Source: Polaromonas sp. 39-63-25
GTDB lineage: Bacteria; Pseudomonadota; Gammaproteobacteria; Burkholderiales; Burkholderiaceae_C
Direction: 5' to 3'
Assembly: GCF_002278925.1 (NCBI RefSeq)
Contig: NZ_NCJH01000001.1
Span: 248,001-312,000, forward strand
Length of the DNA: 64,000 bases
Shown piece by piece: positions 27,699 through 41,521 of this stretch. Each line of letters starts with the position of its first letter. Position 1 is the first letter of the stretch. A program made the translations under genes and the position numbers. The notes beneath the pieces were generated by a model that worked only from the letters and a program-made list of their open reading frames with translations, did no database searches and was not told the DNA's origin.

Positions 27699-29126
27699 TC
27701 AGAAATTCAGCGTCCGCTTGTCGACGGCCAGCGCCGCCTCCTTGGTGGCCTCGCTGAGCGACGGATGGGCATGGCAAATCCGGGCGATGTCCTCGGAACT
27801 GGCCCTGAACTCCATGGCCACCACACATTCGGCGATCAACTCACTGGCCATCGGACCAACAATGTGCACGCCCAGAATTTCGTCGGTGGCAGCGTCCGCC
27901 AGCATTTTCACCATGCCGGTGGTATCGCCCAAGGCGCGTGCGCGGCCGTTGGCCATGAAGGGGAAGGTGCCGGCCTTGTAGGCCCGGCCCGCGGCCTTGA
28001 GCTGCTCTTCGGTCTGCCCCACCCACGCGATCTCGGGGTTGGTGTAAATCACCCAGGGAATGGTGTTGAAGTTGACATGGCCGTGCTGGCCGGCGATGCG
28101 CTCGGCCACCGCCACGCCCTCTTCTTCCGCCTTGTGCGCGAGCATGGGGCCGCGCACCACATCACCAACAGCCCAAACGTTGGGCAGGTTGGTTTTGCAT
28201 TCCTCGTCGACCACGATGGCGCCACGCTCGTCGAGCTTCAGGCCCACGGTTTCCGGCGCCAGACCGATGGTGTTGGCAGTCCGGCCGATCGAGACAATCA
28301 GCTTGTCGACATCGAGCGTCTGGGCCTCGCCCTTGGCATTGGTCCAGGCGACGGATACGCCTTTTTTGCCGGACTTGATCTCGCCAACCTTGACGCCAAG
28401 CTCGATTTTCAGGCCTTGCTTGACAAAGGCCTTGTGCGCTTCCTTGGCAATTTGCTGGTCCACCGCACCGAGGAAAGTTGGCAGGCCTTCCAGAATGGTC
28501 ACATCGGCACCGAGGCGCCGCCAGACCGAGCCCATTTCCAGACCGATCACGCCGGAGCCGATGAGGCCCAGCTTTTTGGGCACCGCGCCGATGCGCAGGG
28601 CGCCGTCGTTGGACAGAATATTTTCTTCATCAAAAGGTGCGCCGGGCAAGGCGCGGGCGTTCGATCCCGTGGCCACGATGACGTGTTTGCCGGAGAGGGT
28701 TTCCTCGGCGGCTCCAGCCACCTTGATGTCATAAAGACCGTCCTTCGCCGCGACGAAAGAGCCCCGGCCATGGAAGAAGGTGACCTTGTTCTTCTTGAAC
28801 AGGTAGACGATGCCGTCGTTGTTCTGCTTGACGACCGTGTCCTTGCGCGCCACCATCTTCGCGACGTCCAGGCCCAGGCCCTTGACCTCGATGCCATGGT
28901 CGGCAAAGTGGTGAGCGGCATGGTCGTAGTGTTCGGACGATTGCAGCAAGGCCTTGGACGGAATGCAGCCGATGTTGGTGCAGGTGCCACCCAGGGCCGG
29001 TCCACCCTTGGCGTTTTTCCACTCGTCGATACAGGCCACGTTGAAACCCAGCTGGGCGGCGCGGATGGCGGCAATGTAGCCGCCGGGACCGCCACCAATG
29101 ACGATCACGTCGAATTGTTTGGACAT
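27699..29126 (-). CDS. lpdA: dihydrolipoyl dehydrogenase (E3 of 2-oxoglutarate dehydrogenase)
   Basis: FAD enzyme that reoxidises the lipoyl groups of the complex and passes electrons to NAD+. The ATG at 29126, with a GAGGAG site upstream, gives 475 residues starting MSKQFDVIVIGGGPGGYIAA. The redox disulphide is in GTCTNIGCIPSKALL, the second dinucleotide fold is LIGSGVIGLEMG, and the C-terminal catalytic His-Glu pair is in CHAHPSLSE. It begins 10 bases after the odhB stop, forming odhA-odhB-lpdA. Confidence 0.95.
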   Translation of the reverse strand: MSKQFDVIVIGGGPGGYIAAIRAAQLGFNVACIDEWKNAKGGPALGGTCTNIGCIPSKALLQSSEHYDHAAHHFADHGIEVKGLGLDVAKMVARKDTVVKQNNDGIVYLFKKNKVTFFHGRGSFVAAKDGLYDIKVAGAAEETLSGKHVIVATGSNARALPGAPFDEENILSNDGALRIGAVPKKLGLIGSGVIGLEMGSVWRRLGADVTILEGLPTFLGAVDQQIAKEAHKAFVKQGLKIELGVKVGEIKSGKKGVSVAWTNAKGEAQTLDVDKLIVSIGRTANTIGLAPETVGLKLDERGAIVVDEECKTNLPNVWAVGDVVRGPMLAHKAEEEGVAVAERIAGQHGHVNFNTIPWVIYTNPEIAWVGQTEEQLKAAGRAYKAGTFPFMANGRARALGDTTGMVKMLADAATDEILGVHIVGPMASELIAECVVAMEFRASSEDIARICHAHPSLSEATKEAALAVDKRTLNF

Positions 29127-29136
29127 GTATGGCTCC

Positions 29137-30408
29137 TCAGATGTCAAACAACAGACGTGCCGGATCTTCCAGCGCTTCCTTCATCGCCACCAGACCGAGC
29201 ACGGCTTCACGGCCGTCGATGATGCGGTGGTCGTAGCTCATGGCGAGGTAGTTCATCGGACGGATCACGATCTGACCGTTCTCCACAACTGCGCGGTCCT
29301 TGGTGGCATGCACGCCCAGGATAGCCGACTGCGGCGGGTTGATGATAGGCGTCGACAACATGGATCCGAAGGTGCCACCGTTGGAAATCGAGAACGTGCC
29401 GCCGGTCATTTCTTCAATGCCCAGCTTGCCGTCCTGCGCTTTTTTCCCGAACTCGGCAATTTTCTTTTCGATGTCGGCAAAACTCATCTGGTCGGCATTG
29501 CGCAGGATGGGCACCACCAGGCCGCGCGGCGAACCAACGGCGATGCCGATGTCGAAGTAGCCGTGGTAGACGATGTCATTGCCGTCGACCGACGCATTGA
29601 TCACCGGGAATTTCTTCAGCGCATGCACGGCGGCTTTCACAAAGAAACTCATGAAGCCGATCTTGACGCCGTGTTCCTTGGTGAACTGGTCCTGGAACTT
29701 CTTGCGCATCTCCATGACGGGCGCCATGTTGACCTCGTTGAAGGTTGTCAGGATGGCATTGGTCGATTGCGATTGCAGCAGACGCTCGGCGATGCGGGCA
29801 CGCAGGCGGCTCATGGGCACGCGCTGCTCGGGGCGGTCACCCAGGCCGCTGGCCTTGGCAGGTACCGCCACTTGAGGCAAGGAAGTGGTTGGAGCGCCCG
29901 TCGGTATTGCGCTGGCAGCTACTGATTTAGGAGCAGACGGGGCGCCGCCGGCCACCGCACCCAGCACGTCGCCCTTGGTGACACGGCCGTCCTTGCCGGT
30001 CCCGGGAACCGAGCCGGAGGCCAGCTGGTTGTCGGCCATCAGCTTGGCCGCTGCGGGCATGGGTACACCGGCCATGCTGCCCCCAGCTGCGGCGGGCGCG
30101 GCTGCCGGGGTGGCTGCGACGGCGGCCGCAGGCGCTGCTGCGGCAGGTGCAGCAGCAGAGGCCTTGCCTTCGGTGTCGATCCGGGCAATCAGTTGTTCGG
30201 CCGTGACCGTGCCGCCGTCGGCGACCAGGATCTCGGACAGGACACCGGCGGCAGGCGCGGGCACTTCCAGCACCACCTTGTCGGTTTCGATCTCGATCAG
30301 GATTTCGTCGATGGCGATGGAATCGCCAACTTTTTTCTTCCACTGCAGCATGGTGGCTTCCGCCACGGATTCGGACAACTGCGGGACCTTGACTTCTACG
30401 ATAGCCAT
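29137..30408 (-). CDS. odhB: dihydrolipoyllysine succinyltransferase (E2)
   Basis: Core enzyme of 2-oxoglutarate dehydrogenase, transferring the succinyl group to CoA. The ATG at 30408 gives 423 residues from [21 protein letters not shown] lipoyl domain (ETDKVVLE, lipoyl Lys44) is followed by an Ala/Pro linker and a peripheral subunit-binding domain (about 115-152). After a second linker the catalytic domain carries [12 protein letters not shown] near the C-terminus. The second linker, residues about 158-177, is encoded by a family A repeat. It is also called sucB. Confidence 0.96.
29878..29935 (-). repeat. family A repeat inside the odhB interdomain linker
   Basis: Read on the minus strand: TGCTCCTAAATCAGTAGCTG, then CCAGCGC, GACGGGCGCTCCAACCACTT. 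It follows the family layout of hairpin arms, GCGC block, GGGCNNNANCCACTT end, comparable to the copy at 48842-48898. It is more diverged than other copies. It encodes a flexible stretch between the subunit-binding and catalytic domains of OdhB. Confidence 0.55.
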
Positions 30409-30472
30409 TTGAATTCTTTCGGGTTGTGGGTTCGATGGGGTGCGCCGGCCGGCGCAGCCCTTTTCCATTTGT

Positions 30473-33352
30473 TTATTTGGTCAGGACAAAGCCCTTGAGC
30501 TTGCCGAAGGCGCCGTCGACCAGCGCTTTTTGCTGTTCCTGGTGCAGGTGCGAATAACCCACGGCCGGGGATGCCGAGGCCGCACGGCCCGAATAACCAA
30601 GCTTCTGGCCTTCGGCCATGTTTTCGTGGATGTAATGCTGCACGAAGAACCAGGCGCCCTGGTTCTGCGGCTCGTCCTGGCACCAGACGATGTCGGTGAC
30701 ATTCGGGTACTTCTTCAGCTCGGCCGCGAAGGCCTTGTGCGGGAAGGGGTAGAGCTGCTCCACACGCAGGAGGGCGACGTCGTCGACACCCTTTTCTTCG
30801 CGCTTCTTGGCCAGGTCGTAGTAGACCTTGCCCGAACAGGCGACCACACGCTTGACCTTGTCGGCCTTGAGCCCGCCGCTGTCGGGGATCACCGTCTGAA
30901 AACCGCCCTTGGTGAACTCGGACAGCGGCGAGGTGGCGTCCTTGTTGCGCAGCAGCGACTTGGGCGTCATGATGACCAGCGGCTTGCGCAGGTTGCGCAC
31001 CATCTGGCGGCGCAACACGTGGAAGATCTGGCTGGCCGTGGTCGGCTGGACCACCTGCATGTTGGTGTCGGCCGACAGCTGCATGAAACGCTCCAGGCGC
31101 GCCGAGCTGTGCTCCGGCCCCTGGCCTTCATAGCCGTGCGGCAGCATCAGCGTGATGCCGTTGACACGGCCCCACTTGACCTCGCCCGAGGCGATGAACT
31201 GGTCAATCACGACCTGTGCGCCATTGGCGAAGTCGCCGAACTGGGCTTCCCAGATCACCAGCGTGTTCGGATCGTTGGAGGCATAGCCGTATTCGAACGC
31301 CAGCACCGCCTCCTCCGACAGGATGGAGTCGATGACCACAAACGGGGCCTGGTTCTCGGCCACGTTCTGCAGCGGCACATAGGTGCCGGTGTCCCATTTC
31401 TCGCGGCTCTGGTCGTGGATCACCGAATGGCGGTGGGTGAAGGTGCCGCGTCCGCAGTCCTCACCGGACAGGCGCACCGGGTAGCCGCTGGCCACCAGCG
31501 AGGCCAGCGCCATGTGTTCGCCCATGCCCCAGTCCACCGGAATGTCACCGCGGCCCATGGCTGCGCGGTCGTCGTACACCTTCTTGACGAGCTGGTGGGC
31601 GGTGACCGTCGTCGGTATGGTGCTGATCTTTTCGGACAGGCGTTTCCACTCGGCCATCGGAATGGCGGTGTCGCCGGCGTCGGTCCACTTCTTGCCCAGG
31701 TAGGGGCTCCAGTCCACCGCGTACTTGCTCTTGAAGTTGGTGATGACCGGGTCGAAGGTGCTTTTACCGGCGTCCAGCGCGGCGCGCACGGCCTTGACCA
31801 TGTCGTCACCCAACGCCTCGCCCATGCCCTGGGCCGCCAGCTTGTCGGCGTACAGCTTGCGGGTACCGGGGTGTTGCGCAATTTTCTTGTACATCAGCGG
31901 CTGGGTGAGCGCCGGCGTGTCCTGCTCGTTGTGGCCGAGCTTGCGGAAACAGATGATGTCCACCACGACGTCCTTCTGGAACTCCATGCGGAACTCGAGC
32001 GCGAGCTGGGTCGCCAGCACCACGGCTTCCGGATCGTCGCCGTTGACATGGAGCACGGGCGCCTCGATCATCTTGACGACGTCGGTGCAATACAGCGTGG
32101 AGCGGCTGTCGCGCGGGTCGCTGGTGGTGAATCCGATCTGGTTGTTGATCACGATGTGCACCGTGCCGCCGGTGGAGTAACCCCGGGTCTCGGCCAGGGC
32201 CAGGGTTTCCATGACCACGCCCTGCCCTGCGAACGCAGCATCGCCGTGCACCAGCACCGGCAACACCTGCAGGCCCTTGGGGTCGGCGCGGCGGTCCATG
32301 CGGGCGCGCACCGAGCCTTCGACCACCGGGTTGACGATTTCGAGGTGCGAGGGATTGAACGCCAGGCTCAGATGCACCGGCCCGCCGGGGGTGGTGACGT
32401 CGGAGCTGAAACCCTGGTGGTATTTGACGTCGCCGCTCGGAAGGTCTTCAGGGGCGGTGTGCTCGAACTCGGCAAACAGGTCGGCCGGCACCTTGCCCAG
32501 CGAGTTGACCAGCACGTTCAGGCGGCCGCGGTGGGCCATGCCGATCACGATTTCCTGCACGCCGATGCTGCCGCCGCGCTGGATCAGCTCGTCCATGCTG
32601 GCGATGAAGCTCTCGCCGCCTTCGAGCGAGAAGCGTTTTTGCCCGACATATTTGGTGTGGAGGAAGCGCTCCAGGCCTTCCGCCGCCGAGAGGCGGTCCA
32701 GGATGTGGCGCTTTTTTTCCGGCGTGAAGTTGGGCTTGCTGCGGATGGCTTCGAGTTTTTGCTGCCACCAGCGCTTCTGGTTCTGGTCCGTCATGTACAT
32801 GTACTCGGCACCGATGGTGCCGCAGTAGGTCTCGCGCAGCGCATTGAGCAGCTCGCGCAGGCTCATGGTTTCCTTGCCGAAGAAGGTGTTGCTGGTGTTG
32901 AACACCGCTTCCTGGTCGGCATCGGCGAACCCGTAGAAAGACGGGTCGAGCTCGGGAATGTTGTCGCGCTCGGTGCGTTTGAGGGGGTCCAGGTCGGCCC
33001 AGCGGGCACCGACGTTGCGGTAGGCGGCAATCAGCTGCTGGACGGCGGTGCGTTTGCGTCCCCACTCGGAGTCGGCGGTGGAAGCACCCACCACACGGGT
33101 CACGCCCTGCTTGGCACGTTCGGCGAAAGCGTTGACAACCGGCAGGTGCGGCACGTCCCTGGCGTTGCTGCCGTCAACGGCGGGCACATTTTGCAGGGCG
33201 TCGAAATACTCGCGCCAGTTGTCGGGCACGCTGCCGGGGTTGGCAAGGTAGTTTTCGTACATCTCTTCGACATAGGGCGCATTGCCGCCGAAGAGATAGG
33301 TGTTGCCTTGATAGGCCGAATAGACGGACGACGCCGCCGGGCTTGAACTCAT
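30473..33352 (-). CDS. odhA: 2-oxoglutarate dehydrogenase E1 component
   Basis: Thiamine-diphosphate enzyme of the TCA cycle that decarboxylates 2-oxoglutarate. The 959-residue length and the N-terminal E2-binding segment ([20 protein letters not shown]) are typical. Further landmarks are [17 protein letters not shown], the thiamine region with [14 protein letters not shown] and [11 protein letters not shown], and [19 protein letters not shown] near the C-terminus. odhB starts 64 bases after its stop. It is also called sucA. Confidence 0.97.
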
Positions 33353-33720
33353 TACGCTGACCTCCGTTTCCCTTGGGGAAACATTAGCTGGCCACAGCAG
33401 GATGTGGCTGGTTGATTAACCTTCCGCAACACGGCTTGACCGATTAGCGGATGCGACTGTGGCAAGGAAGGGCCTTCAGAAACACACTTGATTGTGCCAC
33501 CGAATGCCGAAATGACGAAACCAGGGCCCCCCACCGGGCGCCCGGTTTTGTCATGCATCTGTCAGTTGACGGCTGGACCCAACGCCAGGCGTCCCAAACC
33601 ACGCCGGCAGACCGAAACATCGGCAGGCGTGGAGAAAGTCACTGTAATAAATGCTGCTTTTGTGTTACCGCGTGATATAAAACCTTCGGCGTCCAATGGT
33701 TTTTCCTGGGTCCGTTGCCT
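33353..33720. other. divergent intergenic region between odhA and the Slam-like gene
   Basis: These 368 bases must hold the odhA and Slam-like promoters. I see a small stem-loop (GCCACA/TGTGGC at about 33392-33410), a strong hairpin at 33512-33554, and a further arm pair CCACGCC/GGCGTGG (about 33599-33634). No convincing gene is present. I could not match the fold to a riboswitch I know. Confidence 0.5.
33512..33554. repeat. long imperfect hairpin upstream of the Slam-like gene
   Basis: ATGACGAAACC at 33512-33522 pairs with GGTTTTGTCAT at 33544-33554; the single difference becomes a G-U pair in RNA. The inside contains the 14-base palindrome ACCGGGCGCCCGGT (33533-33546). No T-run follows on either strand, so it is not an obvious intrinsic terminator. 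Confidence 0.65.
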
Positions 33721-35049
33721 ATGTCATTCAAACGCTTCATTTTTCTGCTGTCTGTTGCCTGGTTTTCCGCAACGCTTGCCGGCGCGGCGCATGCCGAAGC
33801 CGACGTACTGGTTCGTGAATCGCTGGCGCTGGTGGAAAAGGGCAAGGCGCAACAGGCGTTTGACCAGCTCGCCGCTGTGGAGGAAAAACGCGCGGGCGAC
33901 CCTGACTTTGACACCGTCCTGGGCATTGCCGCCAATGACACCGGCCAGTTCACGCGTGCCGTGTTTGCGCTTGAACGGGTGCTGACGGTCCAGCCGGGCA
34001 ACTCGCGCGCCCGCGCCGAACTGGGCCGCGCCCTGTTTGCGCTGGGCGACAACCAGGCCGCGCGGCAAGTGCTGCAAGAAACAAAACGGGACGCCATCCC
34101 TGCCGAGGTGGCCCGCAAGATCGACGAATTCCTGCAGGCCATCGACCGCAATGAAGAGGCCGCCAGGTCTTCTGTCAGGGCCTATGTCGAAACCGTCGCA
34201 GGCATCGACAGCAATATCAACAGCGGTCCTGGCAATGCCAACGTCGCCGTGCCATCGCTCGGGGGACTGATACTGACCCTGGGCCCGACCAGTGTCAAAT
34301 TGAAGGACGATTTTTACAGCCTGGGCGCCGGCGTCTCCGGACGTTTCGTGATCGACCCGCGCCTGTCGCTGATTGCCAGCGCTTCCGGCAACTACCGCTT
34401 CAACAACGACTACAACGATTTCGACACCCGCCAGTTTGACGTGAGCGGCGGGGCCAGCTACCGGGTCGGCAAGGACGAGTTCACCGCGGCAGTCCAGATC
34501 GGGACCTATACCGCCGACAACACCACCGTGCGCGACCAGCGCGGCTTGGTGGGCGAATGGACCCACCGGCCGGACGCCGCCAGCCAGTGGACCACCTACC
34601 TGCAGCTGTCCACCCTGCGTTACCCCGGCCAGAATCTGCGGGATGCCAACCGCCATGTGCTGGGCACGTCCTACGCGAGGGCGTTTCGGGGCGGGCTGGT
34701 GGTTTTTGGCGGCTTGTACGCCGGCACCGAAAACGAGCGGGCATCCGGCGTGCCGCATCTCGGACACCGGCTCGCAGGCCTGCGCGCCGGTCTGCAGCAG
34801 TCCATCAACGCGGACGTGGACCTGTTCGCCAACGCCGGGTATGAAACGCGCCACCACGGCGGCGCCGACCCGTATTTCCTGGTGAACCGCCGTGACCGGC
34901 AGACCAACCTGAATCTGGGCCTGACCTGGGTTCCTGTCGTGAGCTGGCGCGTGACACCGCAGCTGTCGCTGCTGAGGACAAACTCCAACATCTCCATTTC
35001 AGATTTCAGCAAGCGCGTGCTGTCCGTGACCGTGCGCAAGGATTTCTAG
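33721..35049 (+). CDS. Slam-like TPR and outer-membrane beta-barrel protein (DUF560 type)
   Basis: Predicted outer-membrane transporter, 442 residues. The ATG at 33721 is preferred over an in-frame TTG two codons earlier. A Sec signal peptide (cleavage near HAEAD, residue 24) is followed by a periplasmic TPR-like region (about 25-140, AFALERVLTVQPGNSRARAE) and a barrel region from about 155 (YVETVAGIDSNINSG). Many alternating beta strands end in KRVLSVTVRKDF, with terminal Phe as in outer-membrane barrels. The NSNISISDFSKR segment before the end resembles the DUF560 C-terminus. Slam proteins export or flip surface proteins. The adjacent FecR-domain gene, 69 bases downstream, is the likely cargo. 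Family placement is by recognition only. Confidence 0.75.
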   Translation: MSFKRFIFLLSVAWFSATLAGAAHAEADVLVRESLALVEKGKAQQAFDQLAAVEEKRAGDPDFDTVLGIAANDTGQFTRAVFALERVLTVQPGNSRARAELGRALFALGDNQAARQVLQETKRDAIPAEVARKIDEFLQAIDRNEEAARSSVRAYVETVAGIDSNINSGPGNANVAVPSLGGLILTLGPTSVKLKDDFYSLGAGVSGRFVIDPRLSLIASASGNYRFNNDYNDFDTRQFDVSGGASYRVGKDEFTAAVQIGTYTADNTTVRDQRGLVGEWTHRPDAASQWTTYLQLSTLRYPGQNLRDANRHVLGTSYARAFRGGLVVFGGLYAGTENERASGVPHLGHRLAGLRAGLQQSINADVDLFANAGYETRHHGGADPYFLVNRRDRQTNLNLGLTWVPVVSWRVTPQLSLLRTNSNISISDFSKRVLSVTVRKDF

Positions 35050-35118
35050 GCAGACGCACCCGCCGTTGCCGTTTCCCCCCCCCGCTCCGCCATCCAACGA
35101 TCCGCCAGGGCCCACATC

Positions 35119-36495
35119 ATGAAACCACACTTCCCGCTGAAAAATGCCGCCCTGCTGACGGCACTGGTGAGCGCCTGGCCGCTGCAGGTACATGCGCTGG
35201 CCGGGATCGCCCAATTCACTGCCGGTGAAGTCAACGTCCGGCAGGCGGATGGCAAGACCATCGCCCTGGCCAAGGGCGGCAGCATCGACAGCGGTCACGC
35301 CATCGTCACTGGTGGCAACGGCCGGGCCCAGGTCCGGTTCACCGATGGTGGCCTGGTTTCACTGCAGCCCAACACCGAGTTCAAGATTGCCAACTATGTG
35401 GACCAGAACAACCCCAAGGAAGACCGCTTCCTCGTTGACCTGCTGCGCGGCAGCATGCGCGCCATCACCGGCCTGATCGGCAAACGCAACCGGGACAACT
35501 ACCGGCTCACCACCACCACCGCCACCATCGGCATCCGCGGCTCGGGCTTCAAGGTCGGCTACAACCCGGATGGCTCGCTCGGCATCACCAGCGAGCTGGA
35601 CAAAATTGAAGTCTGCAACCAGAGCGGCTGCATAGGCCTGGTGGCAGGAGAGTCGTTGAAGGTTCTCGACAATGTGACGCCACCGGTGCGTACCAGCGAA
35701 CAGCCCAAGGTCGAGACGCCCGTTACCACGAAGGATCCTGTCGTTGTGGGCGACAAGGTGGACCAGGCGGGCAAGATAAAAGTTGTGACCGAAAAAGTGG
35801 AAGCAGCAACCACCACAACCACCACCAAAACAACTACCACCACAACGACGTCTCCTGTCGAGCGCACCTTCACGGACATCCAGGTCGCGGCAGTCGGCGT
35901 CAACAGCGGCTCGGCATACACCCTGACGACCAGCACCGGAGCCACGACCGTTTTCAGCGACAACAAACTGCTCAAGCTGCAGGACACCGGGGCCAACACG
36001 CCGAAGTGGTCGGAAGCCGGCACAGCGCAGCCGGTGACCAGTTTCAAGTCTGTCGGCAATGTGAGTGACGCCAACTTCATCGGCTGGGGAATGTGGACCA
36101 CCGGTCAGAAAGAAGATCCGAGCGTCCTCTCGCTGGACAACGTGCACTACGTCGCAGGACGGCCCACGTCACAGACAGAACTTTCCGCACTGTCCTACAG
36201 CGGCGTTGCCAACTACACGCTGGCGGGCAACACGGCCCCCACGCAAAACGGTATTGCCGGCACGCTCAACAGCGCGACCTTCTCGGTCAATTTCCAGACG
36301 GGCTATACCATCTCGGTGGCCATCAACACCTCGTTCGGCAACTTCACGGACTCGGCATCCGGCAGCACGCCGTCCTTCAATGGCACCTATATCAAGGGCA
36401 TGTTCGTCGGCACCAATGCCGCGTATGCGGGCCTGACCTACGCCAAGAACCCCGGGGCCGGCTTGATCACCGGCGCGGTGGTTTTCAAGAAGTAG
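35119..36495 (+). CDS. secreted FecR-domain protein with TbpB-like C-terminal barrel, candidate Slam cargo
   Basis: Predicted exported protein of 458 residues. A Sec signal peptide ends near VHA (residue 26) and has no lipobox cysteine, so it is probably not lipidated. The FecR domain covers about 33-185 (SIDSGHAIVTGGNGRAQVRF, TTATIGIRGSGFKV). A charged region leads to a poly-Thr linker (231-245). The C-terminal 200 residues are beta-rich, and the end (GMFVGTNAAYAGLTYA, then ITGAVVFKK) resembles the last strands of TbpB-type eight-stranded barrels, the handle recognised by Slam. There is no anti-sigma or TonB context, so classical iron-dicitrate signalling is unlikely. The barrel assignment is an inference. 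Confidence 0.7.
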   Translation: MKPHFPLKNAALLTALVSAWPLQVHALAGIAQFTAGEVNVRQADGKTIALAKGGSIDSGHAIVTGGNGRAQVRFTDGGLVSLQPNTEFKIANYVDQNNPKEDRFLVDLLRGSMRAITGLIGKRNRDNYRLTTTTATIGIRGSGFKVGYNPDGSLGITSELDKIEVCNQSGCIGLVAGESLKVLDNVTPPVRTSEQPKVETPVTTKDPVVVGDKVDQAGKIKVVTEKVEAATTTTTTKTTTTTTTSPVERTFTDIQVAAVGVNSGSAYTLTTSTGATTVFSDNKLLKLQDTGANTPKWSEAGTAQPVTSFKSVGNVSDANFIGWGMWTTGQKEDPSVLSLDNVHYVAGRPTSQTELSALSYSGVANYTLAGNTAPTQNGIAGTLNSATFSVNFQTGYTISVAINTSFGNFTDSASGSTPSFNGTYIKGMFVGTNAAYAGLTYAKNPGAGLITGAVVFKK

Positions 36496-36514
36496 CCTGA
36501 CTCCGGTCGCTGGC

Positions 36515-36538
36515 GACCGCGACTGCGACTGCGACTGC
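36515..36538 (+). repeat. short GACTGC hexanucleotide tandem repeat
   Basis: Four six-base units (GACCGC once, then GACTGC three times) lie 20 bases after the FecR-protein stop codon. Just upstream is a perfect small hairpin GGTCGC-TG-GCGACC (36505-36518). It is non-coding and could vary by slippage. Confidence 0.7.
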
Positions 36539-36585
36539 GTGACTCCACCTGCTCCACCCGCGCGAGGCCGCTGAAACAGTTGGAA

Positions 36586-36641
36586 TGCTATATTTTTTAT
36601 AGCTTATGGCGCACGCGCCAGAAGGGCAAGCACTACTTTTT
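36586..36641 (+). repeat. family A dispersed palindromic repeat between the FecR gene and prpE
   Basis: Starts TGCTATATTTTTTATAGCTT, a near-perfect hairpin, followed by ATGGCGCACGCGCC, AGAAGGGCAAGCACT and a T-run. It lies between two convergent genes (FecR protein plus, prpE minus) and could contribute to termination on both sides. Confidence 0.75.
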
Positions 36642-36664
36642 CATCAAAAAGCCAGCCCGGGCGT

Positions 36665-38578
<1,914 letters not shown>

Positions 38579-38607
38579 GCGCTGTCTCCAGTTTTTGGTT
38601 TCACGAT

Positions 38608-39585
38608 TCAGATTTTGACCACGATGCGGCCGCGGACCTTGCCCGCCATCAAGTCGGCGGCTTTTTCCGCAGCCCGGCTCAGCGGCACTTCTTCCACAAT
38701 GGCTTCGAGTTTCGCCGGGTCCAGGTCCGTCGCCAGCCTGTCCCAAGCCTGCTGGCGGCGCGCCAAGGGGGCCATCACGCTGTCGATGCCGGCCAGCGTC
38801 ACGCCACGCAGGATGAAAGGCAGCACCGTGGCCGGAAAATCCGCGCCCTGGGCCAGCCCGCAGGCCGCCACCACGCCGCCGTAACGCGTTTGCGCGCAGG
38901 CATTGGCCAGCGTGTGCGAGCCTACTGCGTCCACCACCGCGGCCCAGCGTTCCTTTTGCAACGGCTTGCCCGGTGCGGCCAGCTCGGCCCGGTCCATCAC
39001 GGTGCCCGCGCCCAGCTGTTTCAGATAACTTTCCTCACTGGCCTTGCCCGTGGCCGCCACCACGTGGTAACCGAGCTTGCCCAGCAGCGCCACCGTCACG
39101 CTGCCCACGCCGCCGGTGGCACCCGTGACCAGCACCTCGCCGTCGCCGGGCTTCAGGCCATGCTTTTCCAGCGCCAGCACACACAGCATGGCCGTGTAAC
39201 CCGCCGTGCCAATGGCCATCGCCTGCCGCGTGGTGAAGGCGGCCGGCAACCTGACCAGCCAGTCGCCCTGCAGGCGCGCCCGCTCGGCCAACAAGCCCCA
39301 GCGCGTCTCGCCCAGGCCCCAGCCGTTGTGGATGAAGGGGTCGCCGGCTTTCCAGTCCGGGTGGCTGGATTCGAGCACCGTGCCCGCACCGTCAATACCC
39401 GCCACCATGGGCCAGTTGCGCACCACCGGGCCCGTGTTGGTGATGGCCAGCCCATCCTTGTAGTTCAGGGTCGAATACTCGACCTCCACCAGCACATCGC
39501 CGGTGGGCAGTTCGGCCTCATCAAGGGAAACAAGCGCGGCAGAAAAGCCGGCGTCGGACTTGTTGAGTTGCAGGGCTTTGAACAC
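38608..39585 (-). CDS. acuI: acrylyl-CoA reductase (NADPH), AcuI/YhdH family
   Basis: Zinc-free medium-chain reductase expected to reduce acryloyl-CoA to propionyl-CoA. The 325 residues start MFKALQLNKSDAGFSAALVS from a GTG codon. The NADPH-binding motif is TGATGGVGSVTVALL, and the family segments STLNYKDGLAITNTGPVVR and GIDGAGTV are present. No zinc-binding cysteines are seen. It lies directly upstream of prpE on the same strand, so the pair could convert acrylate through acryloyl-CoA to propionyl-CoA. Confidence 0.88.
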   Translation of the reverse strand: MFKALQLNKSDAGFSAALVSLDEAELPTGDVLVEVEYSTLNYKDGLAITNTGPVVRNWPMVAGIDGAGTVLESSHPDWKAGDPFIHNGWGLGETRWGLLAERARLQGDWLVRLPAAFTTRQAMAIGTAGYTAMLCVLALEKHGLKPGDGEVLVTGATGGVGSVTVALLGKLGYHVVAATGKASEESYLKQLGAGTVMDRAELAAPGKPLQKERWAAVVDAVGSHTLANACAQTRYGGVVAACGLAQGADFPATVLPFILRGVTLAGIDSVMAPLARRQQAWDRLATDLDPAKLEAIVEEVPLSRAAEKAADLMAGKVRGRIVVKI

Positions 39586-39827
39586 GGCTGTCTCCGGTTA
39601 TTTCCAAACTGAATTCATAATTATTTATAACAGACTTGCACGGGGCTGACAGGGTCTTTCAGGACAGCCCGATGACGCCGTTGGTATGCTGGAAGCGGCC
39701 AGCTCCGATAAAAAGCGAGCCCACGGCCGTGGCGGGAACAGCAACTGGGACACTCGCCGTCGGAAAAAGTGGGAAGACCCAGCCGCGGAGCCCACACCCC
39801 GGGGGCGGGCAGGGCTCCTCGACGACG

Positions 39828-40322
39828 TTAGAACTCCAGCGTGCCGGCGATCGCCTTGATGCCGGCCTGAGCGCATACCTCATCAACTTCGCCGCCAGGG
39901 GCGCCGGAAACACCGATGGCGCCATAAATGGAGCCGCCGCCCTCGATCAGAAGACCACCGCCCACCGCAAGCATGCGTGACACGCCGCGAATGCCGCTCA
40001 TGGGCTTGCCGGCCTCGGTCTGCGCCGCGAGCGCCAGGGTGGACGTGCGAAAACTGACGGCCGTCCACGCCTTGTTGGTGGCAACGTCCACGGTGTGCGG
40101 ACCCGCGAAACGGTCACGCAGAAAGACCTGGGTCAGGCCGGCACGGTCAACCACGGCAACGCCGACCTGGTAGCCCTGCGTGCGGCAAGCCTCCATCGCC
40201 GCCCTGGCTGCTGTCAGCGCCGTTTCCGGCGTGAGCGACTTGGTCTGAAACGTTGCCTGTTGTGCAAAGGCGAGGCCGGCCAACCCGAAGAGTACAGGGG
40301 CCAGAAAGGTTGAAGTACGCAT
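39828..40322 (-). CDS. exported GlcG/HbpS-family protein
   Basis: The ATG at 40322 with an AGGAG site gives 164 residues. A Sec signal peptide (MRTSTFLAPVLFGLAGLAFA) is followed by the GlcG/HbpS alpha-beta domain with ALTAARAAMEACRTQGYQVG, VVDRAGLTQVFLRDRFAG and VGGGLLIEGGGSIYGAIGVS. Family members include the haem-binding HbpS and glycolate-locus GlcG; ligand and role here are unknown. The 242 bases downstream (39586-39827) hold no gene, only a GC-rich arm pair around 39799-39817. Confidence 0.85.
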   Translation of the reverse strand: MRTSTFLAPVLFGLAGLAFAQQATFQTKSLTPETALTAARAAMEACRTQGYQVGVAVVDRAGLTQVFLRDRFAGPHTVDVATNKAWTAVSFRTSTLALAAQTEAGKPMSGIRGVSRMLAVGGGLLIEGGGSIYGAIGVSGAPGGEVDEVCAQAGIKAIAGTLEF

Positions 40323-40507
40323 GGATGTATCTCCTGCAGATGGCTGGGTTGACGAATAGACGGGACTTCCATAGGCCTGGCGAGCCGCGCGGGAGAGTTC
40401 CAGCTTTTCATCCCCCACGCAGGAAGGACAAGTCCACCGCCATCTTAGCGGTCGGAGCCGATTTGGCCAAAGCCGCTTCACCAGCTCCGCCACCGGGAGT
40501 CAGCGTG

Positions 40508-40795
40508 TCACTTGTGCGCGATGGGCTTGTCCGTGAAGAGATAGTCCTTCATCTCACTGGAAAACTTCGGATCCTTCCTGCGGATCCACTCAAGCACCAT
40601 GGCCGCGTGTTCCTTTTCCTCGTCACGGTTGTGCTGCAGGATGGCCTTGAGGTCGGGGTCCTTGCAGGCATCGGCGCGCTGGTTGTACCAGTCCACCGCT
40701 TCCAGCTCTTCCATGAGCGAGACGATGGCGCGATGCATGTCCCGCGTTTCGTCGGACAGTTCGTTGACGGGTTCGTGGTAACCAACACTGGACAT
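40508..40795 (-). CDS. encapsulated-ferritin-like (EncFtn) diiron protein without a targeting tail
   Basis: A 95-residue helical protein from ATG 40795 (AGGAG site upstream). The segments SLMEELEAVDWYNQRAD (residues 26-42) and HNRDEEKEHAAMVLEW (55-70) match EncFtn, whose half-ferroxidase sites form between subunits. Candidate ligands are Glu30, Glu60 and His63, with Glu29, Glu32, Trp36 and Tyr37 at the neighbouring conserved positions. The protein ends at TDKPIAHK, so the C-terminal encapsulin-targeting peptide of cargo EncFtn is missing, and no shell gene is nearby. It is probably a free iron-oxidising or iron-buffering protein. Confidence 0.82.
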   Translation of the reverse strand: MSSVGYHEPVNELSDETRDMHRAIVSLMEELEAVDWYNQRADACKDPDLKAILQHNRDEEKEHAAMVLEWIRRKDPKFSSEMKDYLFTDKPIAHK

Positions 40796-40897
40796 GGCGT
40801 TTTCTCCTGTTGCCAAGACTTCTTATAGCAGACCCCGGCCGGCGGACGGTGATCAGGGGTCGGGCCCGGCAGCTTCGCCGGGCGAGTCCGGCGCGCC

Positions 40898-41521
40898 CTA
40901 CTTCACCAGCGCCAGCATGTCCCTGAACGCCGGATGCTCCGCGGTGCGCAGCCACTCGAAGGCCACCATCTCGGTCGTCACCAGTTCGGCACCGGCGCCG
41001 GCCAGGCGGTCGAAGGCGGCGTCGCGGTTGCGTTCAGTGCGCGAGCTGCAGGCGTCGGTGACGACCCAGACCTCGAACTCTTCTTCGAGCAGGCCCAGTG
41101 CGGTCTGCAGCAGGCACACATGCGCCTCGCAGCCGGCCATCACGATGACGCCCCGCCCTTCTTCTTCCGCTGGCGCGGCTTTCTGCAGATGTTTGGGCAG
41201 GCTGCGGGCGTTGCCTCCAGCGGGGGCCTTGCGCGCGGGCGGCCGCAACCACTCGGCCAGGCCGTCGTCCACGGCACTGAAATGCATCTTGTCCAGCGTC
41301 CGGCCGCCGGCCGCCGCGATGGCGGCAGCGACCCCGGGCACGTTGGGCCCCAGCTTGTCGGGCGTCTGCGCCGTGCCCCACACCGGCACGGCCATCAGCC
41401 TGGCCATGCCGGCCAGGCGCAGCGCATTGGCAAGGACAAGCTCACCTTCAAAAATGGCGGGCATCAGACGAACCTGGTAGTCCACCAGCACGAGTTGGGA
41501 GTCATCGGCATCAAGCAACAT
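40898..41521 (-). CDS. isochorismatase-family cysteine hydrolase
   Basis: The 207-residue cytoplasmic protein has the isochorismatase fold. Catalytic Asp is in QLVLVDYQ (Asp14) and the nucleophile is in VIVMAGCEAHVCLLQT. The catalytic lysine is probably in TLDKMHFSA. A Pro/Ala/Lys-rich insertion (about 93-121, APAGGNARSLPKHLQKAAP) separates strands where most members have a short loop. The AGGAA site and ATG at 41521 fit. The substrate cannot be predicted. Confidence 0.85.
   Translation of the reverse strand: MLLDADDSQLVLVDYQVRLMPAIFEGELVLANALRLAGMARLMAVPVWGTAQTPDKLGPNVPGVAAAIAAAGGRTLDKMHFSAVDDGLAEWLRPPARKAPAGGNARSLPKHLQKAAPAEEEGRGVIVMAGCEAHVCLLQTALGLLEEEFEVWVVTDACSSRTERNRDAAFDRLAGAGAELVTTEMVAFEWLRTAEHPAFRDMLALVK

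Follow-up and report, generated by a model that had tools for sequence, protein, structure and literature searches.

A FecR-domain protein encoded next to a divergent DUF560 outer-membrane protein in Polaromonas sp. 39-63-25 as a predicted type 11 secretion cargo

The gene pair and its products

We analysed a stretch of 64,000 nucleotides of the genome of the free-living bacterium Polaromonas sp. 39-63-25 (hereafter, the window), in which two adjacent genes of the plus strand form a candidate type 11 secretion system (T11SS) pair. Gene 1 (33721..35049; 442 amino acids (aa)) encodes a tetratricopeptide repeat (TPR) and DUF560/SlipAM outer-membrane protein, a homolog of the T11SS/Slam proteins, and gene 2 (35119..36495; 458 aa) encodes a FecR-handle-barrel protein, the predicted T11SS cargo. 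The pair is located on contig C52 of the host genome (4.83 Mb), and all features described below lie on the plus strand of the window unless stated otherwise.

The open reading frame (ORF) of gene 1 begins with ATG at 33721, ends with a stop codon at 35049 and has a signal-like N-terminus. Pfam assigned residues 222-442 to SlipAM/DUF560 (PF04575; E 7.2e-10, 39.3 bits against a cut-off of 22), the match being limited to profile positions 68-288, and detected TPR_19 (E 1.3e-9); the Slam-specific TPR_Slam model scored below its cut-off (E 0.008). The TPR plus DUF560-like architecture proposed in a preliminary description of this DNA is thereby confirmed, the profile search of 33721-35049 having returned both matches. 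The TPR region (residues about 28-147; 33802..34161), presumably on the periplasmic side, was modelled as helices over residues 31-140, with predicted local distance difference test (pLDDT) values of 74-90 per ten-residue block. The outer-membrane beta-barrel region (residues about 151-442; 34171..35046), delimited by the SlipAM match and the modelled strands, was built as 12 strands at low confidence, with the last about 40 residues left unresolved by the model; the translocon barrel of T11SS/Slam proteins has about 14 strands.

It could be argued that gene 1 encodes another TPR-bearing outer-membrane barrel, e.g., one for polysaccharide export, with a periplasmic FecR partner, and that the likeness to DUF560 and TbpB proteins exists at the fold level only. 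Such an explanation can draw on the partial coverage of the PF04575 profile and on the Foldseek comparison of the weak gene 1 model with PDB structures, in which BcsC ranked first, followed by EstA, CymA, and other unrelated barrels. However, this ranking is weak evidence, because there was no Slam structure among the best 50 PDB rows; a PDB sequence search with gene 1 yielded mainly TPR matches. When the barrels of 95 FecR-linked gene 1 homologs were compared with those of 26 classic Slam-type proteins, the profile-profile match extended over the whole barrel (E 6e-45, 283 columns, 12% identity), and it was retained (E 3.6e-42) with only the 51 FecR-linked homologs of weaker Pfam score. Considering also that the gene 2 barrel matches Slam cargo by both sequence and fold, we regard this alternative as very improbable.

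Gene 2 starts 69 bases after gene 1 on the same strand, as had been described, and the intervening spacer (35050..35118, not assigned to a strand) contains no plus-strand terminator-like site. Within 33300-36720, no promoter-like site was found on the plus strand, and terminator-like sites were about as many as chance alone would give (4 vs 3.8). By eye, the N-terminus of gene 2 resembles a typical Sec signal peptide without a lipobox cysteine (residues about 1-27; 35119..35199); as the only cysteines of the protein are residues 166 and 171, it is without a lipobox, which agrees with the earlier prediction of a non-lipidated product. The FecR region (residues about 28-182; 35200..35664), likewise foreseen, contains a PF04773 match at residues 62-152 (E 7e-11, 42.9 bits against a cut-off of 24), a family matched by 57/57 domains of our FecR alignment A4 (56 of 93 FecR domains and that of gene 2 itself), and the Pfam scan of gene 2 revealed no anti-sigma domain. 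It is followed by a low-complexity linker (residues 183-248; 35665..35862) with a poly-Thr stretch at about 35809-35850, a modelled handle- or pedestal-like beta region (residues 249-318; 35863..36072), and a C-terminal TbpB/fHbp-type beta-barrel (residues 319-458; 36073..36492), which is the likely T11SS targeting/display domain. Both the poly-Thr linker and the C-terminal strings quoted in the preliminary description are present.

Residues about 246-458 gave a handle and barrel model with pLDDT mostly of 70-96, and the best 50 PDB rows each from Foldseek and VIA-align were Slam cargo; many of the VIA-align alignments with TbpB and HpuA begin at residues 236-253. A profile of 53 gene-2-type barrels (alignment A3, i.e., 52 of the 67 listed barrels and that of gene 2) was also compared with PDB sequences, and 8/8 matches at E<=1 were Slam cargo. 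These structural matches uphold the TbpB-type nature of the C-terminal region, for which a barrel of eight strands would be expected. The barrel segment had no Pfam match at E<=0.01, TbpB_B_D included, and is therefore missed by domain searches; Pfam TbpB_B_D detects 1/53 gene-2-type barrels, and a PDB sequence search with gene 2 returned a single weak match (5ix9, E 0.13). Our own barrel model, used as a control, matched ORFs in 8/28 classic Slam loci, as expected for a TbpB-type barrel (one match, in L150, is Pfam TbpB_B_D at E 1.6e-13), and had no match in 20 control FecR loci.

The pair shares with Slam1/Slam2 and NilB/HrpB the N-terminal TPR, a DUF560 barrel homologous over its length, and a neighbouring gene whose product ends in a TbpB-type barrel, whereas it differs in the low identity of the profile alignment given above, in the lack of a lipobox in the cargo, and in the presence of FecR. 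Unlike TbpB, fHbp, NHBA (which we count as a T11SS cargo), HpuA, and hemophilin, gene 2 has an N-terminal FecR domain and a long linker, and its relatives possess up to four detected barrels.

Linkage of FecR genes with divergent DUF560 genes

At E<=0.001, the sole SlipAM match and the sole FecR match of the host genome are the adjacent genes 1 and 2, and a close-relative search with gene 2 revealed gene 1 upstream of the gene 2 relative in 11/11 Polaromonas loci. The adjacency of both genes is, for these two reasons, not explained by chance, and the pair is kept in all of these loci, in line with the partnership suggested previously. One locus (L011) has a second cargo gene between gene 1 and the gene 2 relative, i.e., two tandem cargo genes.

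For a broader survey, PF04575 was sought in 200 genomes of the same family, 399 of the order, 369 of the class, and 398 of the phylum (overlapping sets), and matches were present in 23, 93, 35, and 69 of them, respectively. The 145 DUF560 matches examined comprised 24/25 from the family, 101/134 (our own count) from the order, and 20/45 from the class, after leaving out the window's own match, the repeat of G020, most of the Neisseriaceae-like paralogs, and numerous matches that were partial or among the weakest. They were divided into divergent DUF560 (PF04575 E 1e-20 to 1e-3, n=117) and classic Slam (E <1e-20, n=28), and a FecR domain was considered linked if it began <=700 bases downstream on the same strand. 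FecR was directly downstream of 98/117 divergent matches (88/104 genomes) vs 0/28 classic ones, one of which (L078) has a FecR ORF upstream; hence the FecR-bearing case, originally thought to be unusual, is not so among divergent DUF560 genes. A cargo-type barrel was detected within the same ORF in 67/98 linked FecR ORFs. Outside the class, 8/20 hand-picked DUF560 matches had a nearby same-strand FecR, downstream in six (including the weak matches of L220 and L221, E about 4e-4 and 5e-4) and upstream in L206 and L207. Two genomes (G198 and G141) encode a gene 1 homolog and a FecR protein without a PF04575 match at E<=0.001, and therefore the Pfam-based counts may be low.

On the gene 1 tree (FastTree; several long branches), the FecR label requires 9 changes, compared with 33.4 in shuffles, so the linkage is clustered and not confined to one clade, and its origin in a single event was rejected. 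Side observations in these loci include gene 1 homologs adjoining FecR proteins that have a Pro-rich tail and lack a detected barrel (L053, L057, L059, L063, and L064), a FecR ORF beside a DUF560 match on the opposite strand (L109:5655-6746), and, in G109:C185 (L062), an open frame of 24372 aa, which is an artefact, as the contig sequence ahead of the terminal FecR-cargo fragment consists of N (5001 of 6119 bases).

FecR as the probable constant part of the system

The preliminary description treated FecR as the passenger of the secreted protein. This was not borne out: FecR is the most conserved part of the protein within Polaromonas, is combined with a variable number of barrels, and is sometimes encoded by a separate gene, so that it is probably not a passenger. 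Of the 68 proteins in which FecR is accompanied by a detected barrel, 52 have one, eight have two, four have three, and four have four barrels. Between model boundaries, the distance from FecR to the first barrel ranges from 63 to 936 residues (median 148.5; in gene 2, the stretch runs from 149 to 264), and it takes in the conserved stretch following the FecR match as well as some of the handle. In L126, L135, and L101, a stand-alone FecR gene (146-155 aa) is situated between gene 1 and a separate gene for a three-barrel protein of 973, 964, and at least 1343 aa, respectively (the last is cut by the locus end). The order is the same in L121, where the large, low-complexity third ORF is cut and has no detected barrel. 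The gene upstream in L126 encodes a CHASE2-cyclase (Pfam).

Across 13 Polaromonas proteins, identity amounts to 91.5% in FecR, 48.4% in the handle, and 56.4% in the barrel; for gene 1 (12 proteins), it is 88.8% in the TPR and 78.8% in the membrane barrel. Partial rank correlations of distances, calculated for 63 pairs, all of them with a detected barrel, showed that FecR tracks the TPR, and the cargo barrel tracks the membrane barrel. A rate-matched repeat on the same pairs gave correlations of 0.43-0.48 for FecR-TPR vs 0.09-0.17 for FecR-membrane barrel, and of 0.29-0.39 for cargo barrel-membrane barrel vs 0.07-0.14 for cargo barrel-TPR, while the pairs of domains within one protein remained below FecR-TPR (TPR-membrane barrel 0.21-0.31, FecR-cargo barrel 0.16-0.23). 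The FecR-TPR vs FecR-membrane barrel contrast excludes zero at 3/3 rate targets. An origin of the co-variation in rate alone was rejected, since after rate matching this contrast persisted throughout and the barrel contrast at two of the three targets. Gene order alone would be expected to produce the opposite pattern, because it is the membrane-barrel part of gene 1 that lies closest to FecR.

The same data bear on a simpler possibility, in which gene 2 is a plain soluble T11SS cargo, released whole like hemophilin/HrpC, with FecR as an extracellular effector, e.g., a binding domain. The sequence provides no lipid anchor, and, in the available text of the respective papers, DUF560 proteins are reported to secrete soluble, non-lipidated cargo (PMC8406197) and known cargo carry their effector domains at the N-terminus, where FecR sits (PMC12282271). 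However, effector domains are expected to vary, whereas FecR is the most conserved part; moreover, it co-varies more with the TPR than with the membrane barrel, and it is also found in proteins that lack a detected barrel and, in some loci, is encoded separately. We therefore find release of the whole protein rather unlikely, and prefer to read FecR as a constant docking module, since it is linked to the exporter with 0-4 detected barrels and is sometimes a gene of its own.

Two further groups of FecR-like proteins were considered. LapA-type retention modules belong to type 1 secreted RTX adhesins with a LapG site. FecR domains of the pairs matched NCBIfam retention_LapA in 51/57 cases (below the cut-off where shown), and their profile matched the MpAFP chain 5ix9 (E 4.4e-5). 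Control FecR domains away from gene 1 matched retention_LapA as well (17/20), and their profile matched 5ix9 more strongly (E 1e-7); the likeness to LapA/MpAFP is thus general to FecR, and a LapA-like retention specific to the paired domains was rejected. The FecR/FpvR regulators possess a cytoplasmic anti-sigma part and a membrane helix and are encoded beside an extracytoplasmic function (ECF) sigma factor and a TonB receptor. Gene 2 has the PF04773 domain in common with them, but an apparent signal peptide stands in place of the anti-sigma part and the helix, and there is no ECF sigma factor or TonB receptor among the neighbours read.

Genomic surroundings and the proposed mechanism

Both genes flanking the pair are on the opposite strand, and their relatives flank the pair in L003-L006 too; the preceding ones are presumably 2-oxoglutarate dehydrogenase-like, and the following one CoA-ligase-like. 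Read without Pfam, the ORFs of 29000-41000 appear to us to resemble 2-oxoglutarate dehydrogenase, CoA-ligase, and other metabolic genes, with no sigma factor or TonB receptor among them. The FecR domain is thus indeed outside a TonB or anti-sigma context, as noticed before, and the genome has no other FecR match. In the survey loci, neighbours were selected according to ORF length and truncated at 330 aa (sets A6 and A7, with 73/81 and 81/92 neighbours, respectively), and no TonB receptor was found among the 25/75 downstream and 25/72 upstream neighbour families listed.

These surroundings are relevant to the idea of a signalling pair, in which gene 1 would be a surface sensor whose state is relayed in the periplasm by the FecR protein, similarly to FecR-FecA, the barrels having been added in some lineages. 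In E. coli, the FecR domain contacts the periplasmic part of FecA, according to the available text of PMC5498481; CHASE2 domains were found in 4/73 downstream and 6/81 upstream neighbour ORFs scanned, and FecR proteins without a detected barrel do exist. In addition, Slam and a TbpB-like protein are encoded in a Lysobacter cluster together with a TonB transporter, a sigma factor, and a FecR regulator (available text of PMC11233812). That cluster likewise combines a FecR-family gene with Slam and TbpB-like cargo, but FecR there is a regulator beside the sigma factor, whereas the FecR domain of gene 2 belongs to the cargo itself, with neither a sigma factor nor a TonB transporter seen beside the gene; thus, FecR near Slam is in print as a regulator and, in the literature searched, not as a part of Slam cargo. 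Given that gene 2 is devoid of an anti-sigma domain, that no CHASE2 gene is evident among the window neighbours read, and that about two thirds of the linked FecR ORFs bear a cargo-type barrel, signalling appears an improbable function of the pair.

A TPR-GT41-like glycosyltransferase gene is present downstream of the cargo gene on the same strand in 24 loci (7/11 Polaromonas and 17/82 other pairs with room for it), with a gap of <40 bases in 8/17 non-Polaromonas loci. These TPR-GT41 (OGT/SPINDLY-like) genes include L082:6683-8776, L088:6697-8868, L131:6523-8655, L045:6167-8338, and L046:7453-9714, as well as those downstream of FecR cargo in L007-L013; the L046 gene (Pfam GT41, E 1.2e-34) is the only one that was run full length in Pfam, the others being assigned by likeness. 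GT41 genes are common in the family (123/200 genomes), and none was matched in the host genome at E<=0.001, so such an enzyme encoded nearby cannot be what acts on the poly-Thr linker encoded in the window. In GT41-bearing species, an export operon with cargo glycosylation is our guess.

Judging from sequence comparisons, we consider it probable, at roughly two chances in three, that genes 1 and 2 constitute a dedicated type 11 secretion pair, in which FecR docks and the handle-barrel is displayed. Homology, barrel fold, linkage, and co-variation were observed directly, and from them transport, its direction, and the final location are inferred. Both products would be exported by Sec, that of gene 2 without lipidation. 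The FecR domain would then dock on the periplasmic TPR arm of gene 1, as the co-variation suggests, and the handle-barrel, by homology to Slam cargo, would engage the gene 1 membrane barrel and reach the cell surface. FecR would thus be the constant element, serving for docking or as an adaptor, and the handle-barrel the variable surface part. For classic Slam1, the general chaperone Skp is described as a holdase in the available text of PMC9090332, and the FecR module may be a dedicated addition beside it.

Several points weigh against this interpretation. A barrel was not detected in the same ORF in 31/98 linked FecR ORFs, of which L083, L085, L108, and L122 have barrel-like ends by eye and others end in Pro- or Thr-rich tails; 19/117 divergent matches have no adjacent FecR (two have <600 bases of downstream sequence), and L158 has a barrel protein without FecR after gene 1. 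The models used for FecR and for the barrel both started from Polaromonas seeds and were refined iteratively on the same loci. The co-variation evidence for docking is correlational, and the cargo-barrel contrast excludes zero at 2/3 rate targets and touches it at the highest one. Finally, the FecR part of the gene 2 model has pLDDT mostly <50, and the gene 1 model is weak.

A more far-reaching version, which we put forward only tentatively, is that FecR stays clamped to the TPR in the periplasm while the linker passes through the pore and one to several barrels are held outside, and that environmental Beta- and Gammaproteobacteria use this form of type 11 secretion by default. With FecR kept inside and the barrels outside, the exporter would double as a protein anchor replacing the lipid. 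An iron or haem role for gene 2 found no support in the present analysis.

According to the available text of PMC8406197, the DUF560 network comprises ten clusters, nine of which, mostly from water and soil bacteria, are without a characterised protein; a cargo survey of 2025 analysed clusters 1 and 3 and, in its available text, found known barrel domains to be rare beside cluster 3 (PMC12282271). FecR is absent from the main text of both papers. Our full-text literature search yielded no report joining FecR with DUF560, surface lipoprotein assembly modifier, or T11SS, and FecR-bearing Slam cargo was not found in the literature searched, which excludes most subscription papers. For the divergent DUF560 proteins, the FecR-linked pair names a concrete cargo and its domain layout and predicts a FecR-TPR interface, and therefore makes the question of their export directly testable. 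If FecR does serve as an anchor, it would represent a new way of holding proteins on the Gram-negative surface.

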